A stretch of 64,000 nt of DNA from a bacterium (lineage in GTDB: Bacteria; Bacteroidota; Bacteroidia; B-17B0; Aurantibacillaceae). The stretch's first letter is position 1. Every line of letters begins with the position of its first letter. The notes under the pieces were generated by a model. It did not search any database, was not told where the DNA came from, and saw only the letters and a program-made list of their open reading frames with translations. Below are positions 2,066 to 22,612 of the stretch, one piece after another. The translations under genes and the position numbers were made by a program. The stretch covers positions 1 to 64,000 of the forward strand of contig JAQSCW010000047.1 of NCBI GenBank assembly GCA_029945625.1, in the 5' to 3' direction.

Positions 2066-2205
2066 TGCATATAACGTTTTGCAGCTACAAGAAGTTGGCG
2101 ATTTCGAAGCACTAAACTGTCTGCCACCACAAAACTTGATACGAAGCACAAAGCTTCATTTAACCACTGAACCGCCAATTTCTTGTAGGTGCTGTTAGCT
2201 GCTGC
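2066..2205 (-). other. attC-like site E2
   Basis: Arms 2081-2100 and 2173-2192 pair along about 20 bases, bounded by TAAC (2072-2075) and GTTA (2194-2197). The loop is longer (about 70 bases) and not of the main loop family. It is the 3' site of cassette C9, the acetyltransferase cassette. Confidence 0.8.
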
Positions 2206-2909: not shown

Positions 2910-3040
2910 AGGGTTGCAGCTAACGTTTTGCGGCCTTGCCTAGTGCCTGTCGTCCGCAATGCTAAATGTACGAATGTCCAACGAGATGCCAAAATACCAC
3001 AGAAAACAGGCATTAGGCAAGACCGCTGTTATGTTTAGTG
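2910..3040 (-). other. attC-like site E3
   Basis: Arms 2930-2949 and 3007-3026, bounded by TAAC (2921-2924) and GTTA (3028-3031). The loop carries AAATGTACGAATGTCC, shared with E4 and with the isolated site at 42.1 kb. It is the 3' site of the large cassette C8. Confidence 0.8.
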
Positions 3041-3418
3041 CGCCCCACACAGTTTGCGACCAAGTGTCAGCCGTAATTGTCCGAAGAATTTGTTAGATGT
3101 CTTACGGAAATTAAAAGCCCGAATTTACCATGAACTGGTTTATTTTTTTGCGTGCGTTGGCAATGCGCTTTGAAAAAGTGCCCGTTCTAATAGGCGTTTA
3201 GGCTGTTGGAAATTTTACAAGCTTATTTTGCGCCACTAAAAATTACTTCCTTTGAAAAGAAGTGCAAAATGTGCTTGAAAAATGTGCGCTGGCGTGGGTG
3301 TCCGCTTACACACAGGTCAATACGTTAAGTTGGTTGTAAATGCCAATTAGTATTGAACATCCAAAAGCATCGCGGTGCATGGCTAGATTAAGTCATATAA
3401 TTTAAAATAGAAAATCTA
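3041..3418. repeat. Left flanking module of cassette C8 (LM-a)
   Basis: Non-coding. A hairpin at 3218-3277 pairs CAAGC and ATTTTGCG with their partners around an unpaired TT/GT step. Surrounding sequence (CGTTGGCAATGC, GGAAATTTTACAAGC, a CCACTAAAAATTA loop, AAATGTGCGC) matches the left modules in cassettes C4 and C1. It lies between E3 and the stop codon of the secreted protein gene. Confidence 0.65.
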
Positions 3419-5206
3419 TTACTCAAGTATTACAAACTTTTCATTGTTCACACCATAACTGGTAATAATTTGTAATTGATAATATCCCTGAGGAAGCTTT
3501 AAATCCAATTCTGTTGTTTCATTAAAGTAGCTACTGAATACTGTCTTTCCACCCAAGTCTGTAATTCTAAGTTGTCCAGAGCCTGGGTAATTGATGTTTA
3601 TTTTACCAGTCGATGGATTCGGATAAATTTGAATATGCGACTTTGTACTATTCTTCTGTATTGCTGTCGTATTGTTTGTGCAGGATACAACAACTTGCGT
3701 GAGTAAAGCAGAGTTTATACAGCCATTTAAGTCTGTGCCAGTTACTGTATAGGTTGATGTCACTGATGGAGAAACAATACTTCCTGAACTCCAAGTATAA
3801 GTGTTTGCACCAGTTGCTGAAAGTGTTGCTGAAGTCCCTAAACAAATGGAACTAGACGAAGAAGTAGCGTTAATATTAGGTAAAGAATTAACTGTAATTG
3901 TGGATGTGGCTTGATTAGAACAACCATTTGCGTCCGTTCCTGTAACAGTATAAGTTGTATTACTAATAGGTGTTACGATATTGCCAGAACTCCATGTATA
4001 AGTATTGGCACCAGTTGCAATTAGTGTAACAGAATTTCCAAAACAAATAGAAGTATTAGTTGCGATTACATTTGGCAATAGATTAACGATAATATTGGCA
4101 GTAACTGTATTTTGACAGCCTGTATTTGTATTTGTTCCAGTTATTGTATAATTTGATGTTGAGCTGAAATTAAAAATCGTTGGTAAATAATTATATGATG
4201 AAGCGCCAGTTGGAGTAAAATTAGCAACGCTACCATAACAGGTTGTAACATTGCTTACCGCTACTGTTGGATTTGGGTTAACTGAAACCAAAACTGTTTG
4301 TGAAGCAGTTGTGGAACATGAGTTATTGCTGCCCGTTACTGTATACGTGGTATTAAAAATTGGACTAACCACTTGTGTGCTAAATGAAATATTCGTCAGA
4401 TTTGAACCTGAAGCATTAAGTGTTGTTGAATTACCGCTACAAATTGTGGAAGGCGAAGCATTAATCGACACAACTGGATTTCCAACTACTGTAACTGAAA
4501 TTGTTTTTGTATTTGAAGTATTTGTAACTCCGAGATTTGTTAGAGTATTAGTTCCACTGGTATTGTATGCGGTTAAAGAAACAATGTAAATGCCAGGTGT
4601 GTTAAAAGCAACCTGAAAATTATTTGCATTTACAGTACCAGAGGGAGTAGACCCAATTGAAGAATTTGGCGAAACTGTTACTGAGGAAATCGACCCCCCA
4701 GGAATTGTCCAAATAAATTTCTTAGAATTCCATAATGAAGATGTAGTAGAAGAATTCTGAAAATTAAGAGTTGTTCCTTGACAAATGACTGTACTTGTCT
4801 GTGAAAAATTAGCTGTAGGGGTTGGTATGTTAGCTGAACATAAAACAGCTTGAAAGCTTGTATTAGTTATTGCACTACCAGAAATACTTGCTAATGTGTA
4901 TGAAACTACATAAGAACCAGTATCTGTAACTGAAGTAAGATAACCGAAATTTGGAAATGTTGAAAGAGAGGCTTGTGAATTCGCAATGAAATTGCTCGGG
5001 AGTGTTAACGTACCATTTTTTATAACAGTCCTAGATGAAATAGAGAAGCCAGAGGCGGCAGTAGCAGAGTAAGTTGTGAATCCATTGCATCCGATTGTGT
5101 AATGACTTCCCGGCAACGCATTGCCCACTTGAAAGGTAGTTGTTTGCGAAAATCCATCAAATGTTATAATTGTAATCAAAAACCAAATTAGCTTTTGTGT
5201 GTTCAT
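3419..5206 (-). CDS. Secreted repeat protein with T9SS type A sorting tag
   Basis: About 595 residues from ATG at 5206. This start was chosen over the longer frame because it gives a clean signal peptide (MNTQKLIWFLITIITFDGFS then Q). The body is a chain of immunoglobulin-like beta domains of the kind seen in Bacteroidota adhesins: repeats of about 75 residues carrying TYTVTG(T/S)...GC and LxATGANTYTWSSG. The last ~70 residues are a T9SS type A tag (IQIYPNPSTGKI ... LPQGYYQLQI ... KFVILE). It should be exported and either attached to the surface or released. It is one of three genes in cassette C8; at 1.8 kb it is unusually long cassette cargo. Confidence 0.85.
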   Translation of the reverse strand: MNTQKLIWFLITIITFDGFSQTTTFQVGNALPGSHYTIGCNGFTTYSATAASGFSISSRTVIKNGTLTLPSNFIANSQASLSTFPNFGYLTSVTDTGSYVVSYTLASISGSAITNTSFQAVLCSANIPTPTANFSQTSTVICQGTTLNFQNSSTTSSLWNSKKFIWTIPGGSISSVTVSPNSSIGSTPSGTVNANNFQVAFNTPGIYIVSLTAYNTSGTNTLTNLGVTNTSNTKTISVTVVGNPVVSINASPSTICSGNSTTLNASGSNLTNISFSTQVVSPIFNTTYTVTGSNNSCSTTASQTVLVSVNPNPTVAVSNVTTCYGSVANFTPTGASSYNYLPTIFNFSSTSNYTITGTNTNTGCQNTVTANIIVNLLPNVIATNTSICFGNSVTLIATGANTYTWSSGNIVTPISNTTYTVTGTDANGCSNQATSTITVNSLPNINATSSSSSICLGTSATLSATGANTYTWSSGSIVSPSVTSTYTVTGTDLNGCINSALLTQVVVSCTNNTTAIQKNSTKSHIQIYPNPSTGKININYPGSGQLRITDLGGKTVFSSYFNETTELDLKLPQGYYQLQIITSYGVNNEKFVILE

Positions 5207-5299
5207 GTAATATTTTATCCTTTTTGTTTTCATTTTATAGTTTTTAAAGTTTAAATTCTGATTCATGAACTTTTCATTTTAGAGTTTTAGAATATATCA

Positions 5300-6010
5300 C
5301 TAGTGCAATAATTTTAGAAAGTCCGAAATAAAAAGTGTTGATTCTGTATTAAGTTTTCGGTGCGATGAAATAAGCCTTTCTTTGCCTAACGCACTTGCAA
5401 GTGCATCTTCTTGAAATCGCGCTGTGTTTTTATAGTCTGGTAAATATTTCCAACAAGCAAAAAATCCGACACGAAATTTCTTCATTGTGGATTTAATTCT
5501 TGGATTTCTTTCTATACTGTCAAAATCAAAAACACCTGATGGGTAGTATAATAAACCTTTTGGAAGAACATCATTAGTCAAATAATAACTCTTTAAAACA
5601 TGAATATTTCTTTGAGCATTGGCCATTAGAGTCCATTCTGGAATTATGTATTCGCCATGGCAGAAACGAATAATATGTTGAAACAATCTTTCAGGAATAT
5701 TAATTGATTTACCAACATAGAGGGGCAAATACTCGCCTTTAACTTTAATGCCCCATACATAAATCCCAGATAATTTTTTTAAAGTGATATCTACTACATC
5801 TCCTGTAATTTTAATTTCGGGCTGTGGCTCACTTTCACTATACCTACTTTTTTTAAAAAACTCCTTTATTTTCAGGTATTCTAAAGAGTAAGGCCCAATT
5901 AATGAGGATTTGTGATTTGTTAATTTGTTATTAGTTTGTATCATAAATAAAGTCAGTTCGTCTCCATGGGCAGATGTACTCAAACTTACTTCAATTGTAC
6001 AGTTTTTCAT
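5300..6010 (-). CDS. GIY-YIG domain protein, cassette C8
   Basis: About 236 residues, starting at ATG 6010 (TTG just upstream). The GIY-YIG nuclease signature is visible: SGIYVWG (about 81-87), then LYVGKS (about 97-102), then NIPERLFQHI with the conserved Arg. Such domains cut DNA with one metal ion and occur in homing and restriction enzymes and in some phage-defence proteins. The N-terminal ~80 residues and the C-terminal ~100 are not recognised. It is divergent from the kelch gene, with 65 bases between the start codons. Stand-alone nuclease activity is inferred. Confidence 0.65.
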   Translation of the reverse strand: MKNCTIEVSLSTSAHGDELTLFMIQTNNKLTNHKSSLIGPYSLEYLKIKEFFKKSRYSESEPQPEIKITGDVVDITLKKLSGIYVWGIKVKGEYLPLYVGKSINIPERLFQHIIRFCHGEYIIPEWTLMANAQRNIHVLKSYYLTNDVLPKGLLYYPSGVFDFDSIERNPRIKSTMKKFRVGFFACWKYLPDYKNTARFQEDALASALGKERLISSHRKLNTESTLFISDFLKLLH

Positions 6011-6037
6011 CAATTCAAATAATTCAAATCGTTCAAG

Positions 6038-6070
6038 TTTGAATATCAGTATTTTAAGTCCTTATATTTG
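6038..6070 (+). promoter_or_regulatory. Bacteroidota-type promoter of the kelch gene
   Basis: TTTG (6038-6041), a 21-base spacer, then TATATTTG (6063-6070). This matches the Bacteroidota consensus TTTG / TAnnTTTG. The gene's ATG begins only 5 bases after the -7 box, so the transcript would have almost no leader. Confidence 0.6.
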
Positions 6071-6075
6071 CGGCA

Positions 6076-7362
6076 ATGGAAGCAAAAGAACTCAAAAAAA
6101 GAATTGAAAAGGTCTATGGCCAAGAAGTTAAATATGCTAGAGATTGTGACCCGCTTGCAATCGAAATTTCACAAAGTACCGGAGGGACTGTTTCGGCATC
6201 TACTGTAAAGAGACTATTGGGATTTGTTAAAACGTCAAGTAAACCAAGCCAATATACACTTGATACAATTGCAATATACCTTGGTTTTTCTGATTGGAAT
6301 AAATTGGTTTCAAGTGAAAATGCAACAGTTCCAAATGAAAATGGCTCTACAAATAAAGAGAATGAAATAGAAGAAGTTTTAATCACTACAAAAAAAGTTA
6401 ATAGTAAAATCAAAAAGAGTGTTGTCGCTTTTTCGTTAATAATAATATTGTTTTTGTTTTTTGGTTGGTTTTCTATGTCTGATTCAAGTACAAATTATAC
6501 CCAATTGCCTCATTTGCCAGAATTAAGAAATGCAGGTAGGGCTGTAAGCTATGATAAAGCAATTTATTATGTTGGAGGTTCAGATGCGGTTTACGTGCGA
6601 AACGATAATTGGAAGTTTGATTTTGATATGAAAAAATGGATAGAACTATTAGCGATGCCCACAGCCAGAGCTGAGTTTGGAGCCACAATAGTTATTAGTA
6701 AAATTTATTGTTTTGGCGGATGGTTAGGAAATGATATTGGTGAAACAGATGTTGCTGAAGCTTATGATATTCAAACGAATTCGTGGGAAAAGTTACCAAA
6801 ACTTCCTGCGAAAATAACTTCTGCAAATGCGGTTTCGATAGGCTCTGAAGTTTTTATTATTGGCGGAACAACTGGAAAAACGAGAACACATTTTATAAAA
6901 TATGATACACGGAATAAATTATATGAAGAATTACCAGCACCAAAAACCCAACGATTGTATTGTGCAATGGTTACAGCAAATGGCTTAATTTATGCTATTG
7001 GAGGAAACTCCTTTACTGATGGAGAATACAAATGGCTCAATAACCTTTCCGTTTATAATCCAAAAAATAAAATTTGGACAGAACTTGCGCCATTACCTCT
7101 TGCAATAACAAGAAGTTGCGCTTTAGTCAGAGGGAATATGATTCATATTGCAGGTGGCTCAGACGGCTTTGGAAACGATAATGGGACTATAAGAAACAAT
7201 CATTTTGTTTACGACATACAAAAAAATATTTGGGAAGAAGAAAATCCTTTACCATATATAATTTCAGTTCATCAGTTTATTGTTCATGCTGGAAAATTAT
7301 TTCTAATTGGAGGTACATCACAATTTCCTAATCCTGTGAACAAATTTGTCTTATTGAATTAG
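6076..7362 (+). CDS. Membrane-anchored kelch-repeat protein with N-terminal DNA-binding-like domain
   Basis: A 428-residue protein in three parts. Residues 1-80 form a helical domain (SASTVKRLLGF ... SQYTLDTIAIYLGFSDW) seen at the start of many Bacteroidota regulators and probably cytoplasmic. Residues about 115-133 are one transmembrane helix. Residues 140-428 contain about five kelch repeats (the GG doublets in VGGSDA, GGTTGKT, IGGNSF, AGGSDG and IGGTSQ), predicted to be a periplasmic beta-propeller. It lies opposite to the cassette sense and has its own promoter. The layout suggests a transmembrane sensor, but the ligand and targets are unknown. Confidence 0.75.
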   Translation: MEAKELKKRIEKVYGQEVKYARDCDPLAIEISQSTGGTVSASTVKRLLGFVKTSSKPSQYTLDTIAIYLGFSDWNKLVSSENATVPNENGSTNKENEIEEVLITTKKVNSKIKKSVVAFSLIIILFLFFGWFSMSDSSTNYTQLPHLPELRNAGRAVSYDKAIYYVGGSDAVYVRNDNWKFDFDMKKWIELLAMPTARAEFGATIVISKIYCFGGWLGNDIGETDVAEAYDIQTNSWEKLPKLPAKITSANAVSIGSEVFIIGGTTGKTRTHFIKYDTRNKLYEELPAPKTQRLYCAMVTANGLIYAIGGNSFTDGEYKWLNNLSVYNPKNKIWTELAPLPLAITRSCALVRGNMIHIAGGSDGFGNDNGTIRNNHFVYDIQKNIWEEENPLPYIISVHQFIVHAGKLFLIGGTSQFPNPVNKFVLLN

Positions 7363-7800
7363 CATCATAAATTTAAATATAATAAAAACCATGCTGCCGG
7401 TCAGGCGCGCTTTATGGCACGGAGTGCACGCGCATAAAAAGTGGCGTTTTACGACACACCGCTTCCTTTGTGCGGCTGGAATTTAGCTTATTTGTTTTTG
7501 CCTGTCTCTTGCAAAAACAAATGTGCTAAATTAGCGATAGCCATTACGCCCGTGTCGGGCGAAAAAAGCGTCGGCAAGTAAAAATATAAACATACCGAAA
7601 TTTTACCAAGCAGAAAGAAGAGTCCGAAAACCTGTCCTTGTTGGTTGAAGCGAAAATTAATTTAAGAACGTCAGAACCGATGTCAATTGTCAGCCGTAAT
7701 GTTATTGTTCTTGTCGAGCCGAGATGAAGGAAAAATTGTCCACCGAGATGCTAATGTTCTTGTCAAGCCGAAATGTTGATAGGTCCACCGGGCGCATTGA
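7363..7800. repeat. Right flanking module of cassette C8 (RM-a)
   Basis: Non-coding. A hairpin at 7480-7532 pairs AATTTAGC and ATTTGTTTTTGC arms around the same TT/GT internal step as the other modules. It is followed by GATAGCCA and, near 7566, AAAAGCGTCGGCAA, shared with the right modules of C4 and C1. The last 200 bases show repeated GTCCACCGAGATG / GAGCCGAGATG motifs and no gene. Confidence 0.65.
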
Positions 7801-7915
7801 ACATAACGTTATGCGGCTACAAGTTGTGCCGCCGTCCGAATAGTTAAATGTACAAATGTCCGCCGAAAGTTACAACACCGAAATGCGCGGCATAACTTGT
7901 AGGTGCGGTTAGGCG
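7795..7915 (-). other. attC-like site E4
   Basis: Arms 7813-7832 and 7887-7906, bounded by TAAC (7804-7807) and GTTA (7908-7911). The loop has TAAATGTACAAATGTCC, shared with E3 and the 42.1-kb site. The stop codon of the C7 gene overlaps its R'' core, which fits the consensus RYYYAAC exactly (GCCTAAC). Confidence 0.85.
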
Positions 7916-8427: not shown

Positions 8428-8431
8428 AATA

Positions 8432-8535
8432 TTACGCCTAACGTTTTCCAAGCAGGCGTAAGTTTTTTGCTTGTCCAAGTTATGCATTTGAGCGCAAACA
8501 CGCAAAAAATTACGCTTGCTTGGTGTTAGCTGTCT
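8432..8535 (-). other. attC-like site E5
   Basis: Arms 8448-8470 and 8502-8523 with one extra base in the left arm, bounded by TAAC (8439-8442) and GTTA (8525-8528). Its R' core on the minus strand is GTTAGGC, a perfect match to GTTRRRY. Main loop family (CCAAGTTATGCATTTGAGCG). Confidence 0.88.
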
Positions 8536-9269: not shown

Positions 9270-9380
9270 CACTTGCAGCTAACGTTTTCCGACTACGCGT
9301 CCGTTTTTTGCTAATGTCCACCAACACATTTGAGCGTTAACACGCAAAAAATGGAGCGTAGTTGGTGTTAGCACCTGCTT
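9270..9380 (-). other. attC-like site E6
   Basis: Arms 9289-9311 and 9344-9365, bounded by TAAC (9280-9283) and GTTA (9367-9370). The stem sequence (GACTACGCG / CGTAGTTGG) differs from E5 but still pairs, while the TTTTTTGC / GCAAAAAAT tip and the GAGCGTTAACAC loop are kept. It is the 3' site of cassette C5. Confidence 0.83.
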
Positions 9381-9929: not shown

Positions 9930-10030
9930 TAACGTTTTGCGCCTAGGCACAGTTTTTTGCTTGTCCAAGTTATGCATTTGAGCGTTAACACGCAAAAAAT
10001 TGGGCTTAGGCGCTGTTAGTACCAGTTGCC
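9922..10030 (-). other. attC-like site E7
   Basis: Arms 9939-9960 and 9992-10013 of equal length, bounded by TAAC (9930-9933) and GTTA (10015-10018). Main loop family. It is the 3' site of C4, the restriction-modification cassette. Confidence 0.85.
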
Positions 10031-10270
10031 GCCACACAGTTTAACTTCTGGTCACGTGTCCGATGATAAATTGTAATGTTGTCGACCTAGTTTTTGATGT
10101 CCAAACTTTTAATTTTTTGAGCGTTGGCAATGCAATTTGAAAAATTGCTCGTTCTAATGTCCACACAGGCGGGGAGGAAATTTTGCAAGCTTATTTGGCG
10201 CCACTAAAATTATATGCCTTTAAAATAAGCGCCAAATGTGCTTGGAAAATGTGCGAGGGCTTTAAGTCTA
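10020..10270. repeat. Left flanking module of cassette C4 (LM-b)
   Basis: Non-coding and closely similar to the module at 16100-16370 over about 230 bases, starting CAGTTGCCGCCACACAG. A hairpin at 10185-10244 pairs GCAAGC and ATTTGGCGC arms across a constant TT/GT mismatch; its loop has CCACTAAAATTA. It ends about 60 bases before the promoter of the methyltransferase gene. Confidence 0.7.
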
Positions 10271-10332
10271 GCTTAAAGTGCTTAGTTGCGGTTATAAAAA
10301 ATCATTGGTTGAAAATAAAAAAACAAATTTTC

Positions 10333-10362
10333 TTGGATATTTCGGTTTTGTCCGTAAATTTG
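10333..10362 (+). promoter_or_regulatory. Promoter of the restriction-modification genes
   Basis: TTG (10333-10335), a 19-base spacer and TAAATTTG (10355-10362) match the Bacteroidota promoter pattern. They support the ATG at 10389 as the true start and show that the operon does not depend on a promoter at the recombinase end. Confidence 0.55.
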
Positions 10363-10388
10363 TCCGTGTCCGTAAAAATGTCCGTAAT

Positions 10389-12614
10389 ATGATAAATGTA
10401 AAATTCTACCTTGATAAAGCTGATAAAAGCAAAAAGTTTCCAATTCATCTTGTCATTAGGCAAAAAGATGTCCAAGTCAAGGTTGCGACTGGTGAAAAAA
10501 TTTTGAAAAAGGATTGGGACAATAAAAATCAAGTTGTCAAAGAGACGGAATACACATATAAGTCAATAAATAAGTTTTTATCCTTTTTGCAACAGGAGGT
10601 TGAGAAATATTTTGATGCGGTTCCACATTCTCAATTTACAGATAAAAAAGTCAAAGAGAAGATTTTATCGCTGGTAAATAGTCGAAAAGTTAATACCGAT
10701 ATTAAAATGGTCTGCGAAAATCCCGCAGAATATGAAGGAAAAACGAAAACAACATTTGTCGATTTATTTGCTGGTGCCGGCGGTTTTAGTGAGGGCTTTC
10801 TTCAAGCGGAACACGGAAATAGATATTATGATTTTTTACTAGGAAGCGATATAAACGAGAATTGCGAATTGACTCATCTTGCTCGATACAATTACCAACT
10901 TGGAATGGATGCGGAATTTTTGCGTCAAGATATCACCGAACCAGATTTTTTAGATAATCTATTAAAAAAGTTGAAAAGTCAGCAAGTTGACGTTGTATGC
11001 GGTGGGCCACCTTGCCAAAGTTTTAGTTTAGCTGGTAAGCGCAAGAAGTTTGATAAAAAGGATGATTTGTTTGCTCACTACTTAAATGTTATTCGTGTGC
11101 TGCGCCCAAAGTATTTTGTAATGGAAAACGTAAAAGGAATTCTTACAAAAGAAGGTGGAAAGATAAAAGAAATGATTCTGCAAGAAATAAAGTCAATCGT
11201 GGATTTGAAAGAATTTCACCAGTTAATATATTTTTTGGCAAAGCTTAGAAAAGCAGAAAAGGAAAAAACATTTACACTGGATTGCTACAATTTGCGTATG
11301 CAATTTGAATCAGCAAACGAAAAGGAATTGGAGAAATTAAGAGAAAGTTATATTCAGATTGTTGAAAATAAATTCCGTTTGTTAACTCCAAAAATTGCTG
11401 ATTATAAAACAAGCAAAACCGATATTAATATAAACACCGTTCGTCATGGTTTCAACTTACTAAAACGAAGCAAAGAATTATCCTATGTAAGAAAGAAGGT
11501 AATTTTAGAAAAGGCTCATAGTGATTTAGATAATGATTTTTTTGCTGAAAAATTTGATTCCTTTTTGACTTCCATAGAATCGGATTCAATTATTGAGCAA
11601 ATTCACGAAGCCTTTAATAATTTAAAACCTGCAAAAGCTTTTCAAAATGAAATCGCTGAAATAATATCGGCTTTAGAGATATACAATAATTCATTTGAAG
11701 AATGCATTCAAGGACTACAACCTTATGTTAAAGCATTAAAAGCAGAAACGGAATTTGAAGAGATTTTATCACACATTAGATTATATAATATTGATCAACC
11801 TTTTGTTGCTTTAGCTTCAAACTATGGTGTCCCTCAAAACAGAGAACGAGTTTTATTTATTGGGTGTCGCAAAGATCAGAAATTAGTAAAGGCTGTTCCG
11901 CCAACTGTGACCGAAAAGGAAAAGGTTACTGTCTTTGAGGCATTGCACGATTTAGATTTTGTTGGTAACGACGAAGAGAAATTTGATTATGAAAAAATTA
12001 ATTTAAAAGCAAAGTATAACGGTTCAACGGAAAAAATGGAAGCGCTTTTAAAGAAAAGAGCGATAGACGGAAAACCAGAAGACAAGAAGGGTCTAACTTA
12101 TGCAGAGTGGTCAAAAAAAGGGAGATTAAACGGAAGGTTTATTAATGCTAAAAATCCTTTTTATGTTAGAAATTTCGAAGAATTGGAAAACACATTATCG
12201 CATATTGTCGCACCATTGCACAATCATAAAACTAGCAAACAAAATGATGACGTTGTAAAAAGGCTTGATGTAATTTTAAGTACGGGTGATTATGATTTAG
12301 CGAAAAAGGAATTAAAAAAAATCGGATTGAATTCTGAAAAGAGAAATTACAACGTGCTAAAACCGAATTCTCAAAGTTCTACTATTATGACGATTGCGGA
12401 TGATTATATACATTATTCAAATCCAAGAGCATTAACAGTTCGAGAAATGGCAAGGTTGCAATCATTTGATGATTCGTTTGTTTTTCAAGGTAAACGTTCA
12501 ACTGGTGGCAATAAACGTAAATTTGAAGTGCCGCAATTTACATTAGTTGGTAATGCGGTTCCACCGTTAATGGCACGTGCCGTTGCATTGGAAATATTGA
12601 AAAATATAAAGTAG
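10389..12614 (+). CDS. DNA cytosine-5 methyltransferase with arm-type N-terminal domain
   Basis: A 741-residue enzyme that methylates C5 of cytosine with S-adenosylmethionine, protecting host DNA from its partner nuclease. Motif I FVDLFAGAGG (about 123-132), motif IV with catalytic Cys (GGPPCQS, Cys about 209), motif VI ENVKG (246-250), motif VIII QNRERVLFIG (483-492) and motif X GNAVPP (721-726) are all in order. An insert of about 200 residues lies between motifs VI and VIII. Residues 1-45 (VKFYLDK...FPIHLVIRQKDVQVKVATG...WD) look like the arm DNA-binding domain usually at the start of Bacteroidota tyrosine recombinases. The gene lies opposite to cassette sense, 6 bases before the endonuclease gene. 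An upstream in-frame start at 10278 is less likely given the promoter. Confidence 0.93.
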   Translation: MINVKFYLDKADKSKKFPIHLVIRQKDVQVKVATGEKILKKDWDNKNQVVKETEYTYKSINKFLSFLQQEVEKYFDAVPHSQFTDKKVKEKILSLVNSRKVNTDIKMVCENPAEYEGKTKTTFVDLFAGAGGFSEGFLQAEHGNRYYDFLLGSDINENCELTHLARYNYQLGMDAEFLRQDITEPDFLDNLLKKLKSQQVDVVCGGPPCQSFSLAGKRKKFDKKDDLFAHYLNVIRVLRPKYFVMENVKGILTKEGGKIKEMILQEIKSIVDLKEFHQLIYFLAKLRKAEKEKTFTLDCYNLRMQFESANEKELEKLRESYIQIVENKFRLLTPKIADYKTSKTDININTVRHGFNLLKRSKELSYVRKKVILEKAHSDLDNDFFAEKFDSFLTSIESDSIIEQIHEAFNNLKPAKAFQNEIAEIISALEIYNNSFEECIQGLQPYVKALKAETEFEEILSHIRLYNIDQPFVALASNYGVPQNRERVLFIGCRKDQKLVKAVPPTVTEKEKVTVFEALHDLDFVGNDEEKFDYEKINLKAKYNGSTEKMEALLKKRAIDGKPEDKKGLTYAEWSKKGRLNGRFINAKNPFYVRNFEELENTLSHIVAPLHNHKTSKQNDDVVKRLDVILSTGDYDLAKKELKKIGLNSEKRNYNVLKPNSQSSTIMTIADDYIHYSNPRALTVREMARLQSFDDSFVFQGKRSTGGNKRKFEVPQFTLVGNAVPPLMARAVALEILKNIK

Positions 12615-12620
12615 TCATTG

Positions 12621-13805
12621 ATGAGGCAATTAACCACACTTGAAATAAATAGGATAAAACTTCTAACTGAAAAATCTGTCGAACTTTGTCTGATTGAACC
12701 AACTGGAACTGGACTTGAAAAGTCAATCATGGATGCTACAGGGTCGGTTCGAACCTATTTGAAGGGCAATGATATTCACGATTTTGAATCACAAAAACAA
12801 GGTCAAGAAAACAAGATTCAAATTACTTCATTTTTAATATCTTCTAATGAATTGGTTAATTCTGTTGCTTCATTATATCGCCCGAACACTAAAAAAGGAG
12901 ATCCAAGAATTTGGTTCAAAGGATTGGGTAATTACTCAAGTGCAAACGATATTTTAGGAATAATTGCTTTTGAAAATGATTTGTATGTTTTGAATATTAC
13001 ACAACTTGATTTACACAAGTTAATTGAAAGCAAAACATCAAATCCACTTCAGGATTTAGTTAATGAAATAAATCAAATATCTAATGAAGTTGCAGATGAA
13101 CTCTTAGTTCTATTGAATAAAATTGGAGCAAAAGGTCCTGTCCCAGCAATGTTGAAAGCTGATACAGCAATTGGACGAACGCTTGAAACACTATTAGGGA
13201 TTGATATTAATTCGTCTAAAAAACCAGATTACAAAGGCATTGAATTAAAGTCATACCGTGATAAGCGAGGTAATAGAAAAAATCTGTTTGCACAGGTTCC
13301 CGATTGGAGTTTGAGTAAATTCAAAAGTTCTTCTGAAATATTGAACGCTTTTGGATACAGTCGGGGAGATGATTTTAAATTGTATTGCACTGTTTCAGCA
13401 CTTGTCAGAAATTCGCAAGGTTTGAAGTTAAAAATGGATAGCGACATAAGTCAGCTTATTGAAAACTCTGATAAATCAAGCATTGGAGATTTTGTTGTCT
13501 GGGGTCTAGAAACTTTACATAAGCGTCTGCTTGAAAAACACAATGAAACATTTTGGATTGCTGCCGATTCTATCACGATTGGTGGACAAGAACATTTTCA
13601 ATACAAAAAAGTTGAGCACACTAAAAAACCAATTGTTTCTCAGTTTGATATTTTATTGGAACAAGGAATTATTACGCTTGATCATTTGATTAAAAGAAAG
13701 CCAACAGGAAGTGTTGTAGAGAAAGGTCCAATTTTTAAGATTAAACCTAATGCTTTAGATTTACTATTTCCACCAAGTAAATCATATTCTTTACTTTCTA
13801 AATAA
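12621..13805 (+). CDS. Type II restriction endonuclease, MvaI/BcnI-like
   Basis: A 394-residue nuclease pairing with the upstream methyltransferase. The PD-(E/D)xK catalytic centre reads PDYKGIELK (about 202-210), with Asp about 203, Glu about 208 and Lys about 210; GIELKS and the preceding LGI(D)xNxxKKPDYKG are hallmarks of the MvaI/BcnI family. The C-terminal half (FSxSKFKSSSEIL, then SxISQLI) fits the same family. MvaI-type enzymes cut short CC-centred sites, but this enzyme's recognition sequence cannot be told. ATG 12621 follows the methyltransferase stop by 6 bases (TTG at 12618 is possible). It ends just before module RM-b. Confidence 0.8.
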   Translation: MRQLTTLEINRIKLLTEKSVELCLIEPTGTGLEKSIMDATGSVRTYLKGNDIHDFESQKQGQENKIQITSFLISSNELVNSVASLYRPNTKKGDPRIWFKGLGNYSSANDILGIIAFENDLYVLNITQLDLHKLIESKTSNPLQDLVNEINQISNEVADELLVLLNKIGAKGPVPAMLKADTAIGRTLETLLGIDINSSKKPDYKGIELKSYRDKRGNRKNLFAQVPDWSLSKFKSSSEILNAFGYSRGDDFKLYCTVSALVRNSQGLKLKMDSDISQLIENSDKSSIGDFVVWGLETLHKRLLEKHNETFWIAADSITIGGQEHFQYKKVEHTKKPIVSQFDILLEQGIITLDHLIKRKPTGSVVEKGPIFKIKPNALDLLFPPSKSYSLLSK

Positions 13806-13816
13806 ATAATAAAACG

Positions 13817-14174
13817 CCATACGCCCGTGGCCAGCGCCTTTGACTGAACGGAGTGAGATGCGCAAAAACGCTTGCCTGTCGGCAAGCACCACTTTTGTCT
13901 GTGCGTGGGCATTGCAGCTTATTTGTTTGGCTTTACTAAATGTCCCCCGAAGCCAAACAAATGTGCTGCAATTGAGATAGCCACATGTGCCGTGTCCCGG
14001 CACAAAAAAAGCGTCGGCAAAAAAATTAAAATTGTCTTGGAAAAATTTGTTTAAAAGTCCGAACGTCAACCGAAATGTTGTCGATCGGAATACCAGAAGT
14101 TTTTGAAAACGAAAACTCTTTTGTCTACCGTAAAATTGTCATTGGAAATGTCCGCTGCGGCAATTGGTACTAAC
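13817..14174. repeat. Right flanking module of cassette C4 (RM-b)
   Basis: Non-coding. It is nearly the same as 20878-21236 over its whole length of about 360 bases, from CCATACGCC to the cassette boundary. A hairpin at 13911-13972 pairs ATTGCAGC and ATTTGTTTGGCT arms around the TT/GT step. A second stem-loop GCTTGCC-TGTC-GGCAAGC is at about 13870-13887, and CGTGTCCCGGCACAAAAAAA follows near 13991. Confidence 0.75.
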
Positions 14175-14362
14175 GTTTTGCGCATTGGCGCCGGCCCCGT
14201 CGTCAGGTGCCGCCGGTTTTTAAAGACTCCAATGTCTGACCGAAGTTACGAAAAACCGAGCAAAAGCAAACACAAAGAATTTCCGCGGAGCGGACCTTAA
14301 TGTAAATTTGCTTTTGCCACCTCTTATGTCCGGGCTGGCGCCACATGCGCTGTTATATGCTG
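14165..14362 (-). other. attC-like site E8 (long form)
   Basis: The longest site, about 185 bases between TAAC (14171-14174) and GTTA (14352-14355). Outer arms 14180-14198 and 14332-14350 are GC-rich (GCGCATTGGCGCC / GGCGCCACATGCGC). An inner stem pairs AGCAAAAGCAAA with TTTGCTTTTGC, and a small hairpin TCCGCGGAGCGGA tops it. It is the 3' site of C3. Confidence 0.7.
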
Positions 14363-14655: not shown

Positions 14656-14755
14656 TAACGTTTTGCAAGCAGGCAACAGTTTTTGGCTAATGTCCACCCC
14701 TGTATTTGAGCAGCCCCGCGCCAAAAATTGTGCTTGCTTGCTGTTACAAGCTGTA
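14650..14755 (-). other. attC-like site E9
   Basis: Arms 14665-14687 and 14720-14741, bounded by TAAC (14656-14659) and GTTA (14743-14746). The tip is TTTTTGGC / GCCAAAAAT instead of TTTTTTGC, a compensating change, and the loop is a degenerate member of the main family. It is the 3' site of C2. Confidence 0.83.
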
Positions 14756-14794
14756 GGGCGCACACAGCTTAAATTCCGCTGTCGTTGTCAGCCG

Positions 14795-15999: not shown

Positions 16000-16105
16000 T
16001 ATTGCTTGTAACGTTATCCAAGCAGGCGTTAGTTTTTTGCTTGTCCAAGTTATGCATTTGAGCGTTAACACGCAAAAAATTACGCTTGCTTGGGGTTAGT
16101 ACCAG
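16000..16105 (-). other. attC-like site E10
   Basis: Arms 16018-16040 and 16072-16093, bounded by TAAC (16009-16012) and GTTA (16096-16099 region). Its sequence is almost the same as E5 and it has the main loop family. It is the 3' site of the first cassette, C1. Confidence 0.86.
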
Positions 16106-16446
16106 TTGCCGCCACACAGTTTAACTTCTGGTCATGTGTCCGCCGATAAATTTGTAATGTCGGCAAAACTAATTTTTATGTCCGAACTTTTTGATTTTTT
16201 TTGGTCGGCTTTTTTACACACAGTTCGATACACAAAGGCGGGTAGGAAATTTTACAAGCTTATTTGGCGCCACTAAAAATATTTTCCTTTGAAGAGAAGC
16301 ACCAAATGTGCTTGTAAATGTGCGCTAGCTAACTAGTGGGGTCAATTTACAAACAGGTCAAACGGAATAGTTGTCGAATAAAATAATCAGTTGTAAAGTC
16401 AAAATATTTTATTTATTTTTATTTCCTCTTTAAACAATTATCGATT
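16100..16446. repeat. Left flanking module of cassette C1 (LM-c)
   Basis: Non-coding. It is very similar to 10020-10270, beginning with the same CAGTTGCCGCCACACAG. The hairpin at 16255-16314 pairs CAAGC and ATTTGG arms around the TT/GT step with a CCACTAAAAATATT loop. About 130 AT-rich bases follow before the next gene, with no clear promoter. Confidence 0.7.
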
Positions 16447-17574
16447 ATGAAAAAAAATTTCATCCTCTTATTATTTGCTTTTCATGTAACAATCCTTGTT
16501 AATGCACAAACAACACAACTCCGCGGTAATATTAATATAACAGCAACAAGTAACAGTACTCAAATAAAGAAAATGATTAAAACAACTTGTACGCAAACTA
16601 TTCTACCAGGCTTTGAAATTACAGATGAATACACTTTTAAAAACGGAGTTCATAGTTTTACTGCTACCGCGATTACGCCGTCAACAACTACCTCTTAGAC
16701 AATTGCTAAAGAAAAAACTATTTCTGTAAATATGCCTTTAGCGGGAAAAGCAAATATTATAAAGGATGAAAAAGACCCAACAATCCTTAGAGTTAATTTC
16801 TGGTTAAACGCTGAAAATAAGATTCCTGCAACAACACCATTTAGATATGAAACAAAAGAAATCGATTGTGCCGGAAACCCCGTTACTACAATTCATCCTC
16901 CAAGAACACTTTTAACCGACACCTTATGTTACTTGCAGTTAGTTCAATTAGCACCCACTGTTACTGAAAAATGGTTTACTCATGCAGAAACAGTTATAGC
17001 AGTTTTAGATAATTTAGGTAACCCGCTTTATTATTTAGTCGATAAATACGATCGTGATGGTGATTATCGGTTAGAACTTAAAAACAGGGAATATGTGAGT
17101 TATAGAACAAGCAGCATCGATTTGGGACCCCTTGTTGTGCCTTTTAAATTAAGATCTAACATTAAAAGAGACACAATAAGCGTTGGCCAACAAATAGAAT
17201 CAGATGTAAATTTGGGTTTGTTTTTAGCTTATAGTTACGGACAATATAGACTTAGAAGAGAAGGAGATGAATATAAAGATCTTAGTGGCTGGAAAGTTAA
17301 TGCAGGAGGCTTCTTAGATTTTGGAACTATTACGCTTTCAAAAAGCTCAACTTCAATAGCCGATCTGCCATTAGGCGAAAAACAAACAGCCCCTATCTTC
17401 GTAATTTCAAGCGGTCTTGGTGTTACAGTGTCAAAGTGGGATATTAATGCAGGAGTGTTTGTAGGTTGGGATTTTGGGATTGGAGACTATGCGCAAAGGT
17501 GGAATTATAATCGCAAAGCGTGGGTTGGTATGGGTTTTGGCTACAACCTATCAAACTTCTGGAAGAAAAAATAA
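16447..17574 (+). pseudogene. Secreted protein gene interrupted by one in-frame amber codon
   Basis: Reading from ATG 16447, the frame stops at TAG 16696-16698 after 83 codons, then continues open in the same frame to 17574, so the two halves (16447-16698 and 16699-17574) are one gene with a single nonsense codon. The N terminus is a signal peptide (MKKNFILLLFAFHVTILVNA, then Q). The distal part has repeated beta strands with alternating aromatics near the end (GVFVGWDFG, GMGFGYNL), which suggests a small outer-membrane or periplasmic beta protein. Without the stop it would have 375 residues. Read-through or a sequencing error are alternatives to true inactivation. It is oriented against cassette sense beside LM-c. 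Confidence 0.7.
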
Positions 17575-17616
17575 GTTGTTGAGAAACCTTAAATGTGCTT
17601 GCAAAAGCGTTAAGAC

Positions 17617-20600
17617 TTAAGCAATCATATTTACAATCTCTGCTCTAATGCCTTTTAGATTGAAGGTAAGCCTTACGTTATATTTCTTATTTTCAATTAG
17701 CTTTAATTCCACATCAGGTTTTCTTATGTAAAAAAATTGCTGAAACTCAAGAACTTTAGCTTGTGTTCTACCTTTGGAGTTTTTTGAAAGGATGGCTTCA
17801 AATACCTTAGGCTCATTAGTTGTTGAGTCCAGCCAGTATTCACAAACTGCTGGGTTTAAGTAAGTGAATGTGGATTTAATTTCATTAAGGTGCTCGTAAG
17901 TGTTTTTAAAAGCTCGATTGTATGATTCTGCAACAAAACTATAAAAATGATATCTTAATTTTTCTCTTGTTTTTAATGATGGATTTGTTTTGACAATCTC
18001 GAAGAAATTGACAATGTTTTGCGAATAGTGCAAATTTCTACCATAATATTTAAAAAGAATTTTCGCCACTTCGTCATTGTATTTGTAATGACCCATCTCT
18101 TCAATTAATTCTTCCGCTTCATCTTCTTTCCCTGATTCAAATAAGTAATTATATTTTAAAACTAAGGAGTAAGGACGAGTTGAATCTTCCTCATACAATT
18201 CGTCGAGGTATTGAAGCAAAGTTTTATTGCCCTCGATTTTCTTGTCTTTAAATAACCTAATGTAGCCTACTTTTAAGGCAGATATTTTTTCGGTGTTTTC
18301 GTAAACAGCATTTTCAGCAATATCGAATAAGTCTTGAATTAATATGTGTTGTCTTAGATAATCAGTTTCCTCGTATTTAGTATTTACTAGACACCACATT
18401 TCAAAATTTATATAGTCTGAATAGCTATACGAACTGCAAGGATCCTCAATGACTTTTATTTTAAATAGTTCGCGGGCTTCATTAACACAATGCTCACTTT
18501 CAACAGCTTTCCCTTTGTCAAAATACAATTTAGCCAAGTCAAAGTTTATAGACGCTCTTCTATGAATAATTCTATGGTTTCGCTTTTCTTTCATGTCACC
18601 TGAAAAACTTAGACGAGTTAACGCGTTTAATAAAGAACGTTCATCCCTTCTAACGGTTTGCAAATTGATAGCATAATGAAGATTGAAATGTTGGTTAGAC
18701 TCAAACTCTTTTGCTAAAAAGTCATAGAGTTTATTGATTTTATCTTGATTGAGTTTGAAATTATCACGAAGTGCTTTCAATAAATCTATTACAAGTCGGG
18801 CTGAGTATGCTGAATCATTTAATATTGCGAATAACTTCCTTATTTTTTCAAATAATTTATCTTCATTTTTAATCGTTGCATTTACTAAATGTTCAGATAA
18901 AATTGAGTGCTTTGTTCTAAAATACAAATCTGGCTCCGTTCCATGCGCAGGGAGAATTTCTTCTATTAAAATACCTTTGCAATCATCTTCCATAATATCT
19001 CTTATAAAAGCATCCCAATCTTTGCTCACAACTTTCATAAGAACAGCTGCTGGCATAAGGATTTTAAATTGATAAAGAAGCGAAGTGTATACAACTGCAT
19101 CTTTGCCTTTTTCGGAAAGTTGTTTATATGCATCTTCTAGGATTATTTCAAGATGATTTTCTTGATTATTTATTAGCCCTAATAAAGCAATAAACGCCTC
19201 GCCATTAAATTCTTTTATTACTCTATCTATTAATAAATTTTTCTGTGAATTGTCTTTGTATGATACGAGGCCAACATTTGATAGTTTTTCTACAAATTCA
19301 CCAGCTTCATTTTTATCAAAATTGAGCTTTACATTAATTTTGTTGCAATTTTTATAAGAGCTCTTTTTAAGTTGCCGAGTCAAAATGTTTTCCCGAATTG
19401 ATGTAATAAAAAGCACATTAAATTCAGAGAATTGCTCAAGACTTACACGATTTCTCAGATTCATCAGCTCCTTAAATTGACTGTCTACTTCTAGTTCATT
19501 ACATAAAAGAATTATGTTTTTGGCCTTACTTAAAGTAAATAGTTCTATTAGATCAGCTTCAGATAATTTTTCTGGTTCAATTACTTCAAATGCCATAGTT
19601 GAATCTAACTCATGAAGTAATGAATGAATAACCCTATAGGTAAAAGTAGATTTACCATTCCCGAAATGACCTTCTAAAAACAAAATAGGTACAATTCTTT
19701 CACCTTTGAGTTTCAAAATTCTATCAATCTCCTGAGTAACTTTCTTTACCTCACTACTTTTAATAACATCATAATTTTTTCTGATTACATCATATGTTGG
19801 TCTATTACCTTTATAAAACTCTTTTTGAATAACAGTGTGGATTGTGTTTGTATCTGTTAATTGAATTAAACTTTCGCCAAGGGACAATGATAGTTTAGCA
19901 GGCAATAATAGATGCTGATTTGACGTATTTGTATAGCTAATATGTTTCCTTTTAACTATCGTTGAAGCCTTATTCTCAACCCATTCGTCGTAAAGTTTGA
20001 AAAATTCCGCTGGAAGAATTTTAATAATGCAAATTTTCTTCTCCGTATAATAGGGTAAACGGTGCTCGTTAACAAATGGGTCTATCGAATACATCCATTT
20101 CTTATTCCTAAAATTATGGGAGTCAAATTTATCAATAAGATAGCTTGATAATCCATCACTAAATGAAAATCCAATTGAAAGGAAATTAATTGTTGGTGAA
20201 AGTATTTCTAACGATGAAAAAATCGACCTATAATATTTTTTACTATCATTAAAGTCTTTAGTTGATAAGACAAACGGATATTTACTTTTGTCTGAAGCGC
20301 AACCATTAAGCTTAACATATTTTATTTCAGATGGAGTATTATATCCTGAGTATTCTTCGCGACTTTTTACAGTTCTAATTTTGTATGCTTTAGGAGATTT
20401 TACGGACAATTCGTCAAAAGCTCTTTCAATTAATAAATCATAATTTGTTGTTATCATTTCTCTCCATTGAATTGATGCGATGGAACGATGTACATCAGTG
20501 ATTTCGAGAGAACTGATTAGTTTAAGAACGTAGTCATCAAGTTCGTTTCTATCGAATTCAGGCATGGCGCTTAATAAATCTACAAACTCTACGAGATCTT

Positions 20601-20787
20601 TTGAGTGCAATTCAACACCCAATCTGTCTTCATAATATTCAATAATATCATTGCTTAAAAATCTCTTATTTGTAACTGAGGAACCTGCACCCAAAAAAAG
20701 TATAGTTTCAGATTTATAAATTGACGGGAATATCTTTGTTTCAAGAAATTCTTTGGTTTTATTGTTTATTTCTAAAATATGTTCCAT
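17617..20787 (-). CDS. SIR2-P-loop (STAND-like) defence protein
   Basis: A 1056-residue protein. Residues 1-270 are a SIR2-like domain: FLGAGSS (31-37), TTNYDLLIERA (113-123), FLSIGFSFSD (202-211). Residues about 365-560 are a P-loop NTPase with Walker A GHFGNGKST (373-381) and a Walker B-like IILLCNE (425-431). The C-terminal ~450 residues are helical and repeat-like, as in the sensor part of STAND proteins. Related SIR2-STAND proteins sense phage and destroy NAD+, so an abortive antiphage role is inferred. The position where a SIR2 His is usually found (KLHG) reads KLNG here (159-162), so NADase activity needs testing. It is the main cargo of cassette C1 and reads in cassette sense. Confidence 0.85.
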   Translation of the reverse strand: MEHILEINNKTKEFLETKIFPSIYKSETILFLGAGSSVTNKRFLSNDIIEYYEDRLGVELHSKDLVEFVDLLSAMPEFDRNELDDYVLKLISSLEITDVHRSIASIQWREMITTNYDLLIERAFDELSVKSPKAYKIRTVKSREEYSGYNTPSEIKYVKLNGCASDKSKYPFVLSTKDFNDSKKYYRSIFSSLEILSPTINFLSIGFSFSDGLSSYLIDKFDSHNFRNKKWMYSIDPFVNEHRLPYYTEKKICIIKILPAEFFKLYDEWVENKASTIVKRKHISYTNTSNQHLLLPAKLSLSLGESLIQLTDTNTIHTVIQKEFYKGNRPTYDVIRKNYDVIKSSEVKKVTQEIDRILKLKGERIVPILFLEGHFGNGKSTFTYRVIHSLLHELDSTMAFEVIEPEKLSEADLIELFTLSKAKNIILLCNELEVDSQFKELMNLRNRVSLEQFSEFNVLFITSIRENILTRQLKKSSYKNCNKINVKLNFDKNEAGEFVEKLSNVGLVSYKDNSQKNLLIDRVIKEFNGEAFIALLGLINNQENHLEIILEDAYKQLSEKGKDAVVYTSLLYQFKILMPAAVLMKVVSKDWDAFIRDIMEDDCKGILIEEILPAHGTEPDLYFRTKHSILSEHLVNATIKNEDKLFEKIRKLFAILNDSAYSARLVIDLLKALRDNFKLNQDKINKLYDFLAKEFESNQHFNLHYAINLQTVRRDERSLLNALTRLSFSGDMKEKRNHRIIHRRASINFDLAKLYFDKGKAVESEHCVNEARELFKIKVIEDPCSSYSYSDYINFEMWCLVNTKYEETDYLRQHILIQDLFDIAENAVYENTEKISALKVGYIRLFKDKKIEGNKTLLQYLDELYEEDSTRPYSLVLKYNYLFESGKEDEAEELIEEMGHYKYNDEVAKILFKYYGRNLHYSQNIVNFFEIVKTNPSLKTREKLRYHFYSFVAESYNRAFKNTYEHLNEIKSTFTYLNPAVCEYWLDSTTNEPKVFEAILSKNSKGRTQAKVLEFQQFFYIRKPDVELKLIENKKYNVRLTFNLKGIRAEIVNMIA

Positions 20788-20877
20788 TCAAGCGAATTTA
20801 GGTTTTAATATAAAGAACTAATTTACTAAAAATGGCTTAACTATTGCTTTTTTGAATCTATATTTCAATCCATAATA

Positions 20878-21236
20878 CCATACGCCTGTGGCTTGCGCCT
20901 TTGACTGAGCGGAGCGAGATGCGCAAACACGCTTGCCCGTCGGCAAGCAGCCAATTTGTTTTGTGCGCAGGCATTGCAGCTTATTTGTTTGGCTTTACCA
21001 CATGTCCTCCGAGGCCAAACAAATGTGCTGCAATTGTGATAGCCAACATGTGCCATGTCCCGGCACAAAAAAAGCGTCGGCAAAAAATTAAAACTGTCCT
21101 GAGAAAAAATTTGTTTAATGTTCGAGGGTCAACTGCAATGTTGTCGACCGGAATGCCAGAAGTTTTTGAAAACGAAAACTCTTTTGTCTACCGTAAAATT
21201 GTCATTGGAGATGTCCGTGCGGCAATTGGTACTAAC
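20878..21236. repeat. Right flanking module of cassette C1 (RM-c)
   Basis: Non-coding partner of 13817-14174, nearly the same over about 360 bases. The hairpin at 20973-21034 pairs ATTGCAGC and ATTTGTTTGGC arms around the TT/GT step. It lies just upstream of the SIR2 gene start (20787) and runs to the cassette boundary at 21236. Confidence 0.75.
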
Positions 21237-21300
21237 TACCATATACGCGCCATAAAGTGGCGCGTATACAACACCCCGTATGTTGTATTGGCCTCCTTGG
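21233..21300 (-). other. Candidate attI-like region and first cassette boundary (E11)
   Basis: TAAC at 21233-21236 closes cassette C1, and beyond it the attC-type arms are missing. Instead there are two adjacent palindromes: TATACGCGCC / GGCGCGTATA (21242-21268) and ACAACA / TGTTGT (about 21270-21288). This is where an integron would have its attI, between recombinase and first cassette. The GC-rich palindrome could also act as a terminator for the recombinase gene. Confidence 0.5.
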
Positions 21301-21409: not shown

Positions 21410-22612
21410 CTACAAATAATCAAATGGCGACACAATCCTCTGGATGCTTAAAGTGCTCACATGAGTATATATTTCGGTGGTTCTGCTGCTACTATGACCC
21501 AAAATTTCCTGAATATACCGCAAATCAGTGCCGTTCTCCAATAAATGCGTGGCATAACTGTGCCTCAGCCAATGCAAGGTTACCGGTTTTGTGATCCCGG
21601 CTTTCTCCAAAGCCTGCTTCAACACATTCTGCAAACTTCTTGAGTCATACGCCCTCCCCTTCTCCATCCCCTCAAACAAAAAATTCTGCGGCTTATACGT
21701 ACTTATATACTCCTTAAGCATCAATTGCGTCTTATGACTAAGCGGTATAATCCTGTCCTTTCTGCCCTTGCCCCTTTTTACAATCAGTAAGCTCCGGTTC
21801 CAGTCAATATGGTTCAAACACAAGCCAATTAACTCGCCACATCGCAAACCGCAACTGTATATCAAACTCAGCATACTCTTGTGCTTTAAATTGCCATGGG
21901 CATCCAGTATCCGCTTTACTTCTTCCTTGTCCAATACATTTGGCAATACCTTGGCACGTTTTGGCCTTCTAATCAACTCCGGGTGCATCATCTTACTTTC
22001 CAGAATTCTAAAAAACAATTTGATGGCATTAATGATCTGATTTTGATAGGAGGCAGAACATCCCTGTGCAAGCACATAGTCATTATTAAAATTGATGAGA
22101 TCCTCGTGATTCAAACTTTCAACTTCCCGCTCACTAAAATAGCGCAAAAAAACACCCAGCCCTTCTGTATACGTAATTATCGTGTTTTCGCTATAGCGCC
22201 GCGAACGCATCCAACGCCTCAAACGCTCCATCTTTTGGATCTGCTCCGGTTGCAGACTCCCTATCCTCAAGGTTCTCTCCCTCCCTCGTTCACGCCCTCC
22301 ACTAACCTCATCCTTTTCCGCATGCTTAACTTCAACTTTCGCCTCATCCTCCACCTTATCCAACACCTTCCCCCCATCCAGCTCATACACCATCACCGCC
22401 TTTCCTGCAAAAGCAGATTCCAACTCAGCCCTCAACCCTAGTCTCTTTTCAAAATACCATTGCCTGTGCGTTTTTGTGTAGGTGGAGCCGGGCAGACTTC
22501 TTAATGCAGCCTGTAATATATCATCTTTGGGAAATTTTAATCCAATCACCCTCTTTTCGCGATGGATAAATTGCGTTACAATAATTCGGGGAAGCGTTTG
22601 GGTAGATTCCAT
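21410..22612 (-). CDS. Tyrosine recombinase at the head of the array
   Basis: A 400-residue site-specific recombinase. The N-terminal ~75 residues form an accessory domain seen in many Bacteroidota integrases, then a charged linker (80-115), a SAM-like core-binding domain (120-210) and the catalytic domain. Catalytic residues are all present: Arg257 (CGLRCGE), Lys in RGKGRKD (about 282), His347 and Arg350 (HWLRH), His373 (LGHSS) and Tyr382 (EIYTH). IntI-type integrases carry an extra helical segment between the Lys and the HxxR box; here the interval is only about 65 residues and has no such insert, so the protein is closer to XerC/D-type enzymes. It is transcribed in the same direction as the cassettes and stops 174 bases before the first boundary. 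I infer that it works on the array. Confidence 0.9.
   Translation of the reverse strand: MESTQTLPRIIVTQFIHREKRVIGLKFPKDDILQAALRSLPGSTYTKTHRQWYFEKRLGLRAELESAFAGKAVMVYELDGGKVLDKVEDEAKVEVKHAEKDEVSGGRERGRERTLRIGSLQPEQIQKMERLRRWMRSRRYSENTIITYTEGLGVFLRYFSEREVESLNHEDLINFNNDYVLAQGCSASYQNQIINAIKLFFRILESKMMHPELIRRPKRAKVLPNVLDKEEVKRILDAHGNLKHKSMLSLIYSCGLRCGELIGLCLNHIDWNRSLLIVKRGKGRKDRIIPLSHKTQLMLKEYISTYKPQNFLFEGMEKGRAYDSRSLQNVLKQALEKAGITKPVTLHWLRHSYATHLLENGTDLRYIQEILGHSSSRTTEIYTHVSTLSIQRIVSPFDYL

Follow-up and report, generated by a model that had tools for sequence, protein, structure and literature searches.

We analyzed a stretch of 64,000 nucleotides from an Aurantibacillaceae genome of the phylum Bacteroidota (assembly GCA_029945625.1, contig JAQSCW010000047.1, positions 1 to 64,000; hereafter the window), whose start lies in an array of imperfect palindromes resembling attC (TAACG...GTTA), and we describe here a class of mismatched hairpins within this array, represented by the hairpin at 13911..13972 on the + strand. 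A home-made detector called 12 attC-like sites in the first 21.3 kb of the window; it called 2 in the 42.7 kb that follow, and shuffled sequence gave 2.0. Roughly three of these 12 sites fall within open reading frames (ORFs) and are probably false, and one long site, at 14171..14355, was missed by the detector and recognized by eye. Detected sites lie at 756..845, 2072..2197, 8439..8528, 9280..9370 and 14656..14746; three more adjoin hairpins of what we call type A (2921..3031, 9930..10018 and 16009..16098), and one (7804..7911), as well as the long site, adjoins a hairpin of type B. At the inner end of the array are an attI-like sequence found by eye at 21231..21290 (TAACTACCATATACGCG..., common to the sequences L041 and L051) and, on the - strand at 21410..22612, the gene for a 400-residue tyrosine recombinase, P0001, which is oriented as most cassettes are. 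Two of the features by which integrons are recognized, a cluster of attC sites (as called by our own detector) and a tyrosine recombinase at the array end, are both found here.

Three large cassettes of the array, all assigned to the - strand, are bounded by hairpins, of type A on one end and type B on the other: cassette 1 (16009..21234, about 5.2 kb), cassette 2 (9930..14171, about 4.2 kb) and cassette 3 (2921..7911, about 4.9 kb). The type A (cassette-end) hairpins are at 3212..3283, 10180..10250 and 16249..16320, and the type B (cassette-start) hairpins at 7480..7532, 13911..13972 and 20973..21034, the last adjoining the attI-like site and the recombinase gene. All six hairpins are where the original prediction had placed them (3218, 7480, 10185, 13911, 16255 and 20973), each on the + strand. 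The seven other complete cassettes are 0.5-1.35 kb long and have no hairpins. A variant (612..690, + strand), in which inner and outer stems are exchanged (AAAT-GT-GCTGCAA, loop, TTGCAGC-TC-TTTT), stands where the outermost cassette starts, and the core pattern found three further hairpins in the same genome. The hairpin at 13911..13972 sits within a conserved B-end block (13817..14170, + strand), which is 87-88% like 20878-21217 across three consecutive repeat families, the similarity reaching as far as the TAAC of the following attC or attI; a conserved A-end block (10020..10262) lies between attC and cargo. Cassette 2 encodes, on the + strand, a C5 DNA methyltransferase as well as an MvaI/BcnI-type restriction enzyme, and the methyltransferase (10278-12614) contains at residues 46-113 an Arm-DNA-bind_5 domain (Pfam E 2.4e-5), which is otherwise typical of integrases. 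The cargo of cassette 1 includes a 1056-residue protein (17617-20787) that has a SIR2-like domain (PF13289) as well as a match to STAND NTPases and is likely to be anti-phage.

Each of the six hairpins is a long imperfect stem, and all six share the core AGC-TT-ATTT facing AAAT-GT-GCT. The original prediction had drawn this constant core one pair longer, as ATTTG/CAAAT, but five of the six have G-C as their fifth pair and the copy at 3218 has T-A. It had also taken TT opposite GT to be an unpaired step; on the + strand the first step is indeed a T·T mismatch, but in the second T faces G and pairs as a T·G wobble, whereas the - strand has two mismatches at the same place, A·A and C·A. The hairpin at 13911..13972 has the form ATTGCAGC-T-TATTTGTTTGGC / GCCAAACAAATG-T-GCTGCAAT. 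Folded as DNA, it reaches -20 kcal/mol compared with -5.1 +/- 1.6 for shuffles (z = -9.3; z = -8.6 for its opposite strand). The six hairpins are real and not the product of chance. The feet of the A and B stems are variable and have no TAAC/GTTA-type R boxes, so that the hairpins do not themselves qualify as attC sites.

We ran the core as a pattern (GCTTATTT-N18..48-AAATGTGC) on 100 genomes of relatives, with the reversed pattern as a control, and obtained 97 matches in 33 of the 100 genomes compared with 8 matches for the control. Because this search presets the core, we tested its invariance by other means, using covariance models built from 19 B hairpins (R1) and 18 A hairpins (R2), which matched 32 and 37 of the 100 genomes, respectively, and 42 in total. 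Among the 19 B sequences, 99.0% of cells were paired and seven pairs had changed on both sides; for the 18 A sequences the figures were 98.0% and seven pairs with double changes, and none of 500 shuffles of either set reached them. These data bear out the claim that the outer and inner stems vary and yet pair, and they establish that the fold of the hairpins is under selection. The search of Bacteroidota genomes by covariance model, which the original prediction had proposed as its check, also recovered hairpins outside the core pattern in which the core had changed and the mismatch was retained, with AAAC-T-/-T-GTTT at L050:7341 and L043:968, AAGT-T-/-T-ACTT at L044:18414 and TATGTG/CACATG at L047:17004.

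For the counts of mismatches, orientation, placement, cassette size, motifs, cargo and satellite hairpins given below, we compiled by hand, from the covariance-model tables for 109 sources, a list of 191 matches; we omitted opposite-strand and cross-model duplicates and most other matches whose E exceeded about 0.001, and retained a few weak, likely matches (e.g., L057:1841, E 0.19; L054:3706, E 0.13). Removal of 21 rows with identical stem arms left 170 distinct stems. A non-Watson-Crick step was assignable in 165 of the 170, a figure somewhat favored by our script, which accepts shifts of up to three positions; the step was at the expected position without a shift in 146. It was T·T in 123 stems, T·G in 28 and G·G in 11, with single cases of T·C, G·T and C·C. 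The pairs on either side of it (-4 to -2 and +3 to +5) were Watson-Crick in 95-100% of the 165 copies, and several of these positions changed identity from copy to copy. Five stems remained unassigned, and in one of them, L127:343, every position of the core is paired. Repair of the mismatch, which had been named as grounds for giving up the prediction, was therefore complete in one stem of 170, with the 28 T·G and the one G·T being wobbles. The mismatch is strongly conserved, though not strictly invariant as had been claimed.

Perfect palindromes are known to be lost in cells, and we considered whether the hairpins might be a by-product of cassette inheritance, that is, imperfect palindromes passed on with the cassette ends whose mismatch is kept only because perfect inverted repeats are unstable. 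The copies do share ancestry, but drift would not hold such a level of pairing amid letter changes, nor keep one step in place, and for stability a mismatch at any position would suffice; we regard this explanation as highly unlikely. At the position beside the mismatch, the hairpin strand can form a pair in 157 of the 165 stems (T·G 100, C-G 30, A-T 17, T-A 8 and G·T 2), compared with only 55 of 165 with a Watson-Crick pair at the same step on the opposite strand. This pattern argues that the fold of the + strand is the one that matters.

The two hairpin types mark opposite ends of large cassettes among the relatives as well. Aligned flanks show no break in conservation between A and attC, and beyond B the conservation likewise reaches the TAAC box of the following attC or attI. 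With a detector that misses sites, A had an attC-like site on its left in 38 of 59 cases and on its right in 10 of 66, and B had one on its right in 47 of 83 and on its left in 5 of 93. Loci with several hairpins had a single hairpin orientation in 48 of 48 cases. The A-to-B gaps were 1.0-9.3 kb in 36 of 37 pairs (15.0 kb in the remaining one), and B-to-A neighbors were 392-520 nt apart, spanning attC, in 12 of 21. When cassettes below 250 bp or above 9 kb were left out, the median length was 4556 bp for cassettes with hairpins (n = 18) versus 842 bp for those without (n = 42; p = 3e-8).

Cargo genes allowed us to weigh the possibility that the hairpins are RNA elements that act at the borders of cassettes as signals for processing, stability, insulation or termination. 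The covariation, and a variation compatible with G·U pairs, would suit RNA as well as DNA, but of 107 cargo ORFs 84 lie antisense to the strand that folds and the other 23 run along it, whole operons included (counted without the 15.0-kb pair, one of the 37), and the orientation of the hairpins does not turn with the cargo. Because the orientation stays constant whichever way the cargo runs, the hairpin is tied to attC rather than to genes, and this attachment points to DNA rather than RNA. Rfam gave no match at gathering threshold over 115 kb from four sources and none at E <= 1 in window positions 13800-14760 (961 bases), and a search of 13700-16400 for intrinsic terminators found none at the hairpin (4 terminator-like sites versus 3.0 expected). 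We consider a role as RNA distinctly unlikely.

Repetitive extragenic palindromic (REP) elements are mismatched imperfect hairpins with a short conserved motif beside them and a one-strand orientation, and their hairpins, too, carry internal mismatches. The hairpins described here resemble those of REP/RAYT and IS200/IS605 systems in being imperfect and mismatched, in lying on one strand and in adjoining a short motif; TGYGNNGG, which is like a guide motif, stands at the cargo side of 27 of 68 A and 31 of 102 B hairpins versus 0.7-1.4% of random windows. A and B, which share one strand and orientation with cargo between them, might therefore be the ends of a non-autonomous single-stranded DNA transposon of either kind, served in trans by an HUH enzyme and with attC as its favored target. 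Unlike those systems, however, our hairpins are tied to attC, with conservation passing beyond them to attC on both sides, and they have no association with Y1 transposases: Y1_Tnp (PF01797) was found in 21 of 28 hairpin genomes versus 25 of 32 others (odds ratio 0.84), and it is missing from the other 7 of the 28; G030 and G023, both rich in hairpins, lack it. No convincing stem was seen in the 34 viral contigs with the pattern, one of which has four inner pairs and one outer pair. We give this explanation little chance. A plain nested transposon had also been considered and was dropped because the flanks are conserved up to attC.

The fine structure around the hairpins bears on what they may do. 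B hairpins are often in tandem, about 100 nt apart. A GATAGCC-like motif follows B in 64 of 102 copies, and after it comes a small satellite hairpin (in the window at 13986..14004 on the + strand, after GAGATAGCCA) whose position is kept in other copies, whose mean stem is 5.3 pairs versus 3.3 in shuffles and whose sequence is very variable, with 49 different arms in 70 copies. On the attC side, the hairpin strand has 13.2 TGTC per kb compared with 0.9 for GACA. Rolling-circle replicons and single-stranded DNA phages have complementary-strand origins, and rolling-circle single-strand origins resemble our hairpins in being strand-specific imperfect hairpins in the non-coding DNA of small circles. 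The hairpins could prime second-strand synthesis on an excised bottom-strand circle, and long cassettes would be most in need of such priming. No replication gene was found here, although no search aimed at one was made. The same strand and orientation at every copy, the tandem hairpins of several loci and their satellites, the TGTC saturation on the attC side (possible priming sites) and the confinement of the hairpins to large cassettes would all fit such an origin, but the TGTC density also extends over small cassettes that have no hairpins. A figure-legend passage of PMC8946536 states that whether free cassettes are single- or double-stranded is unknown. We think an origin of this kind unlikely.

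We asked how far the recombinase accords with an integron. P0001 matches integron integrases and Xer proteins, it has a PF00589 match (E 4.9e-41), and its best fold match is the integrase IntI4 (2a3v, E 8.3e-18). It lacks the IntI additional domain, since the alignment passes from residue 307 to 325 of P0001 while the IntI4 chain passes from 185 to 245, so that about 42 residues are missing, and it scores 197.3 bits against TIGR02249, below the cut-off of 265. Passages in PMC9668308 and PMC2426708 take the IntI-specific additional domain as the criterion for an integron integrase. At its N terminus P0001 has an extra domain of about residues 1-78, which is shared by homologues and well predicted as b-b-a-b-b-a-b. 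This domain has a weak sequence and fold likeness to HARP of SMARCAL1 and to the XPB N-terminal domain, none of it significant. With the profile, nothing in the PDB other than 4o66 was matched at E <= 1 (E 0.48 for 4o66); of 31 members, 3 had a Pfam match to HARP (best E 0.0041) and 7 to DUF5710 (best 8.7e-5); Foldseek with the predicted model gave 0.085 for 4o66 and 0.054 for XPB; and VIA-align Z scores of 3.9 (4o66) and 5.6 (XPB) were within the range of common arrangements. Homologues in genomes without hairpins have the same domain, so it need not serve the hairpins. The gene is associated with hairpins: a close homologue of P0001 (E <= 1e-100) was found in 29 of 42 hairpin genomes versus 13 of 58 others (p = 4e-6, with kinship ignored) and, within the genus, in 21 of 27 versus 5 of 13 (p = 0.03).

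The array is like integron arrays in having tandem cassettes that run mostly in one direction, TAAC/GTTA imperfect palindromes between them, conserved in structure and little in sequence, and a tyrosine recombinase and attI-like site at one end; it is unlike them in that its recombinase lacks the IntI domain and falls short of the TIGR02249 cut-off, and in that attC, in its large cassettes, is flanked on both sides by conserved hairpins of a second kind. Because the recombinase is not an IntI by the strict rule, we call the array integron-like and regard the hairpins as a new element within it. We propose, tentatively and with somewhat less than an even chance of being right, that the hairpins are attC-flanking single-stranded DNA structures of large cassettes in this integron-like system of Bacteroidia, and that their mismatch is read by a protein. 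From the recombinase outwards, the order of a large cassette is crossover point, B hairpin, cargo, A hairpin and attC, and by this order the attC of a free circular cassette would be flanked by A and B, within one conserved non-coding block. When the strand opposite most cassette genes becomes single-stranded, the hairpins would fold beside the folded attC, and if these arrays follow the integron rule, in which the bottom strand recombines (stated in a passage of PMC8946536), the acting strand would be that recombining bottom strand. The mismatch would provide a fixed irregular step in the stem, to be read by the recombinase through its extra N-terminal domain or by a host factor. Extrahelical and unpaired bases are features of attC sites as well. 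Reading of the stem might help long cassettes through synapsis, excision, insertion or copying back to double strand. The original prediction had viewed the constant unpaired step as a protein recognition feature; the selected fold and the persistence of the mismatch while its neighbors covary agree with this, and we infer the protein reader from them.

Several observations weigh against our interpretation. Folding energy does not favor either strand (B, -20.0/-20.0 and -16.2/-16.5 kcal/mol; A, -16.8/-14.1 kcal/mol). Outside the core, G·T outnumbers A·C (63 versus 11, in 163 stems without those scoring <9 or having repeated arms), but we dropped this as a proof of strand because T·T/A·A (45 versus 9) and G·G/C·C (14 versus 2) are equally skewed. 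The copies are related by descent, so our counts are not independent. Small cassettes do without hairpins, the N-terminal domain bears a weak likeness to HARP, and the recombinase occurs in 13 of 58 hairpin-free genomes while a close one is missing from 13 of 42 genomes with hairpins, so the two do not go strictly together.

A bolder form of this proposal, which we think rather unlikely, is that Bacteroidia possess an integron class of their own, in which a recombinase without the IntI domain would read the mismatch of the hairpins around attC through an added domain of HARP/XPB type and so move multi-gene cassettes of several kb. If this were true, standard finders keyed on the IntI domain would miss such arrays. 

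Integron cassettes are usually short and carry a single gene; those described here are natural, measure 1-9 kb and contain whole operons, including restriction systems and other defense genes, and both of their ends are marked by a selected structure, which offers a direct handle on the processing of long cassettes. R1 and R2 can serve as search models for arrays in a phylum with very few reported complete integrons; according to passages of one survey (PMC9024848), Bacteroidetes had at first yielded only integrases without cassettes and then one complete integron, from Salinibacter.

The hairpins occur in a group of uncultured Bacteroidota. Among 90 genome-collection matches to a longer pattern, paired stems were found in Bacteroidota-type records, mostly metagenome assemblies, and outside these only in one record labelled Ignavibacteriales; matches in Acinetobacter, Clostridia and others had no stem. 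The B-end block had no match in phage or plasmid collections, and a literature search of open-licence papers found no account of paired cassette-end hairpins. Contigs of many relatives (e.g., L122, L126-L128 and L177) often break near hairpins, and short-read assemblies therefore probably undercount the arrays. In L041, at about 7260, a large A/B cassette lies at an attI-like sequence beside a cyclophilin gene, with no adjoining recombinase.

The strand bias of TGTC runs along much of the array: across positions 1-21250 the + strand has 177 TGTC versus 26 GACA, with the strongest enrichment in 1-4000, 8000-10000 (40 versus 1) and 14000-16000, and the enrichment extends into small-cassette ORFs and is absent from most large-cassette cargo. 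Positions 42000-42900 are also enriched in TGTC on the + strand, and here, far from the array, a lone attC-like site lies in a stretch (42080-42850) that is TGTC-rich like the array and contains two small ORFs, one resembling, by its translation, a helix-turn-helix antitoxin and the other a RelE-type toxin. Beyond the recombinase gene, a two-copy non-coding repeat occupies 22673-23016 and 27307-27597, about 4.6 kb apart, with the copies 84-94% alike in three blocks.
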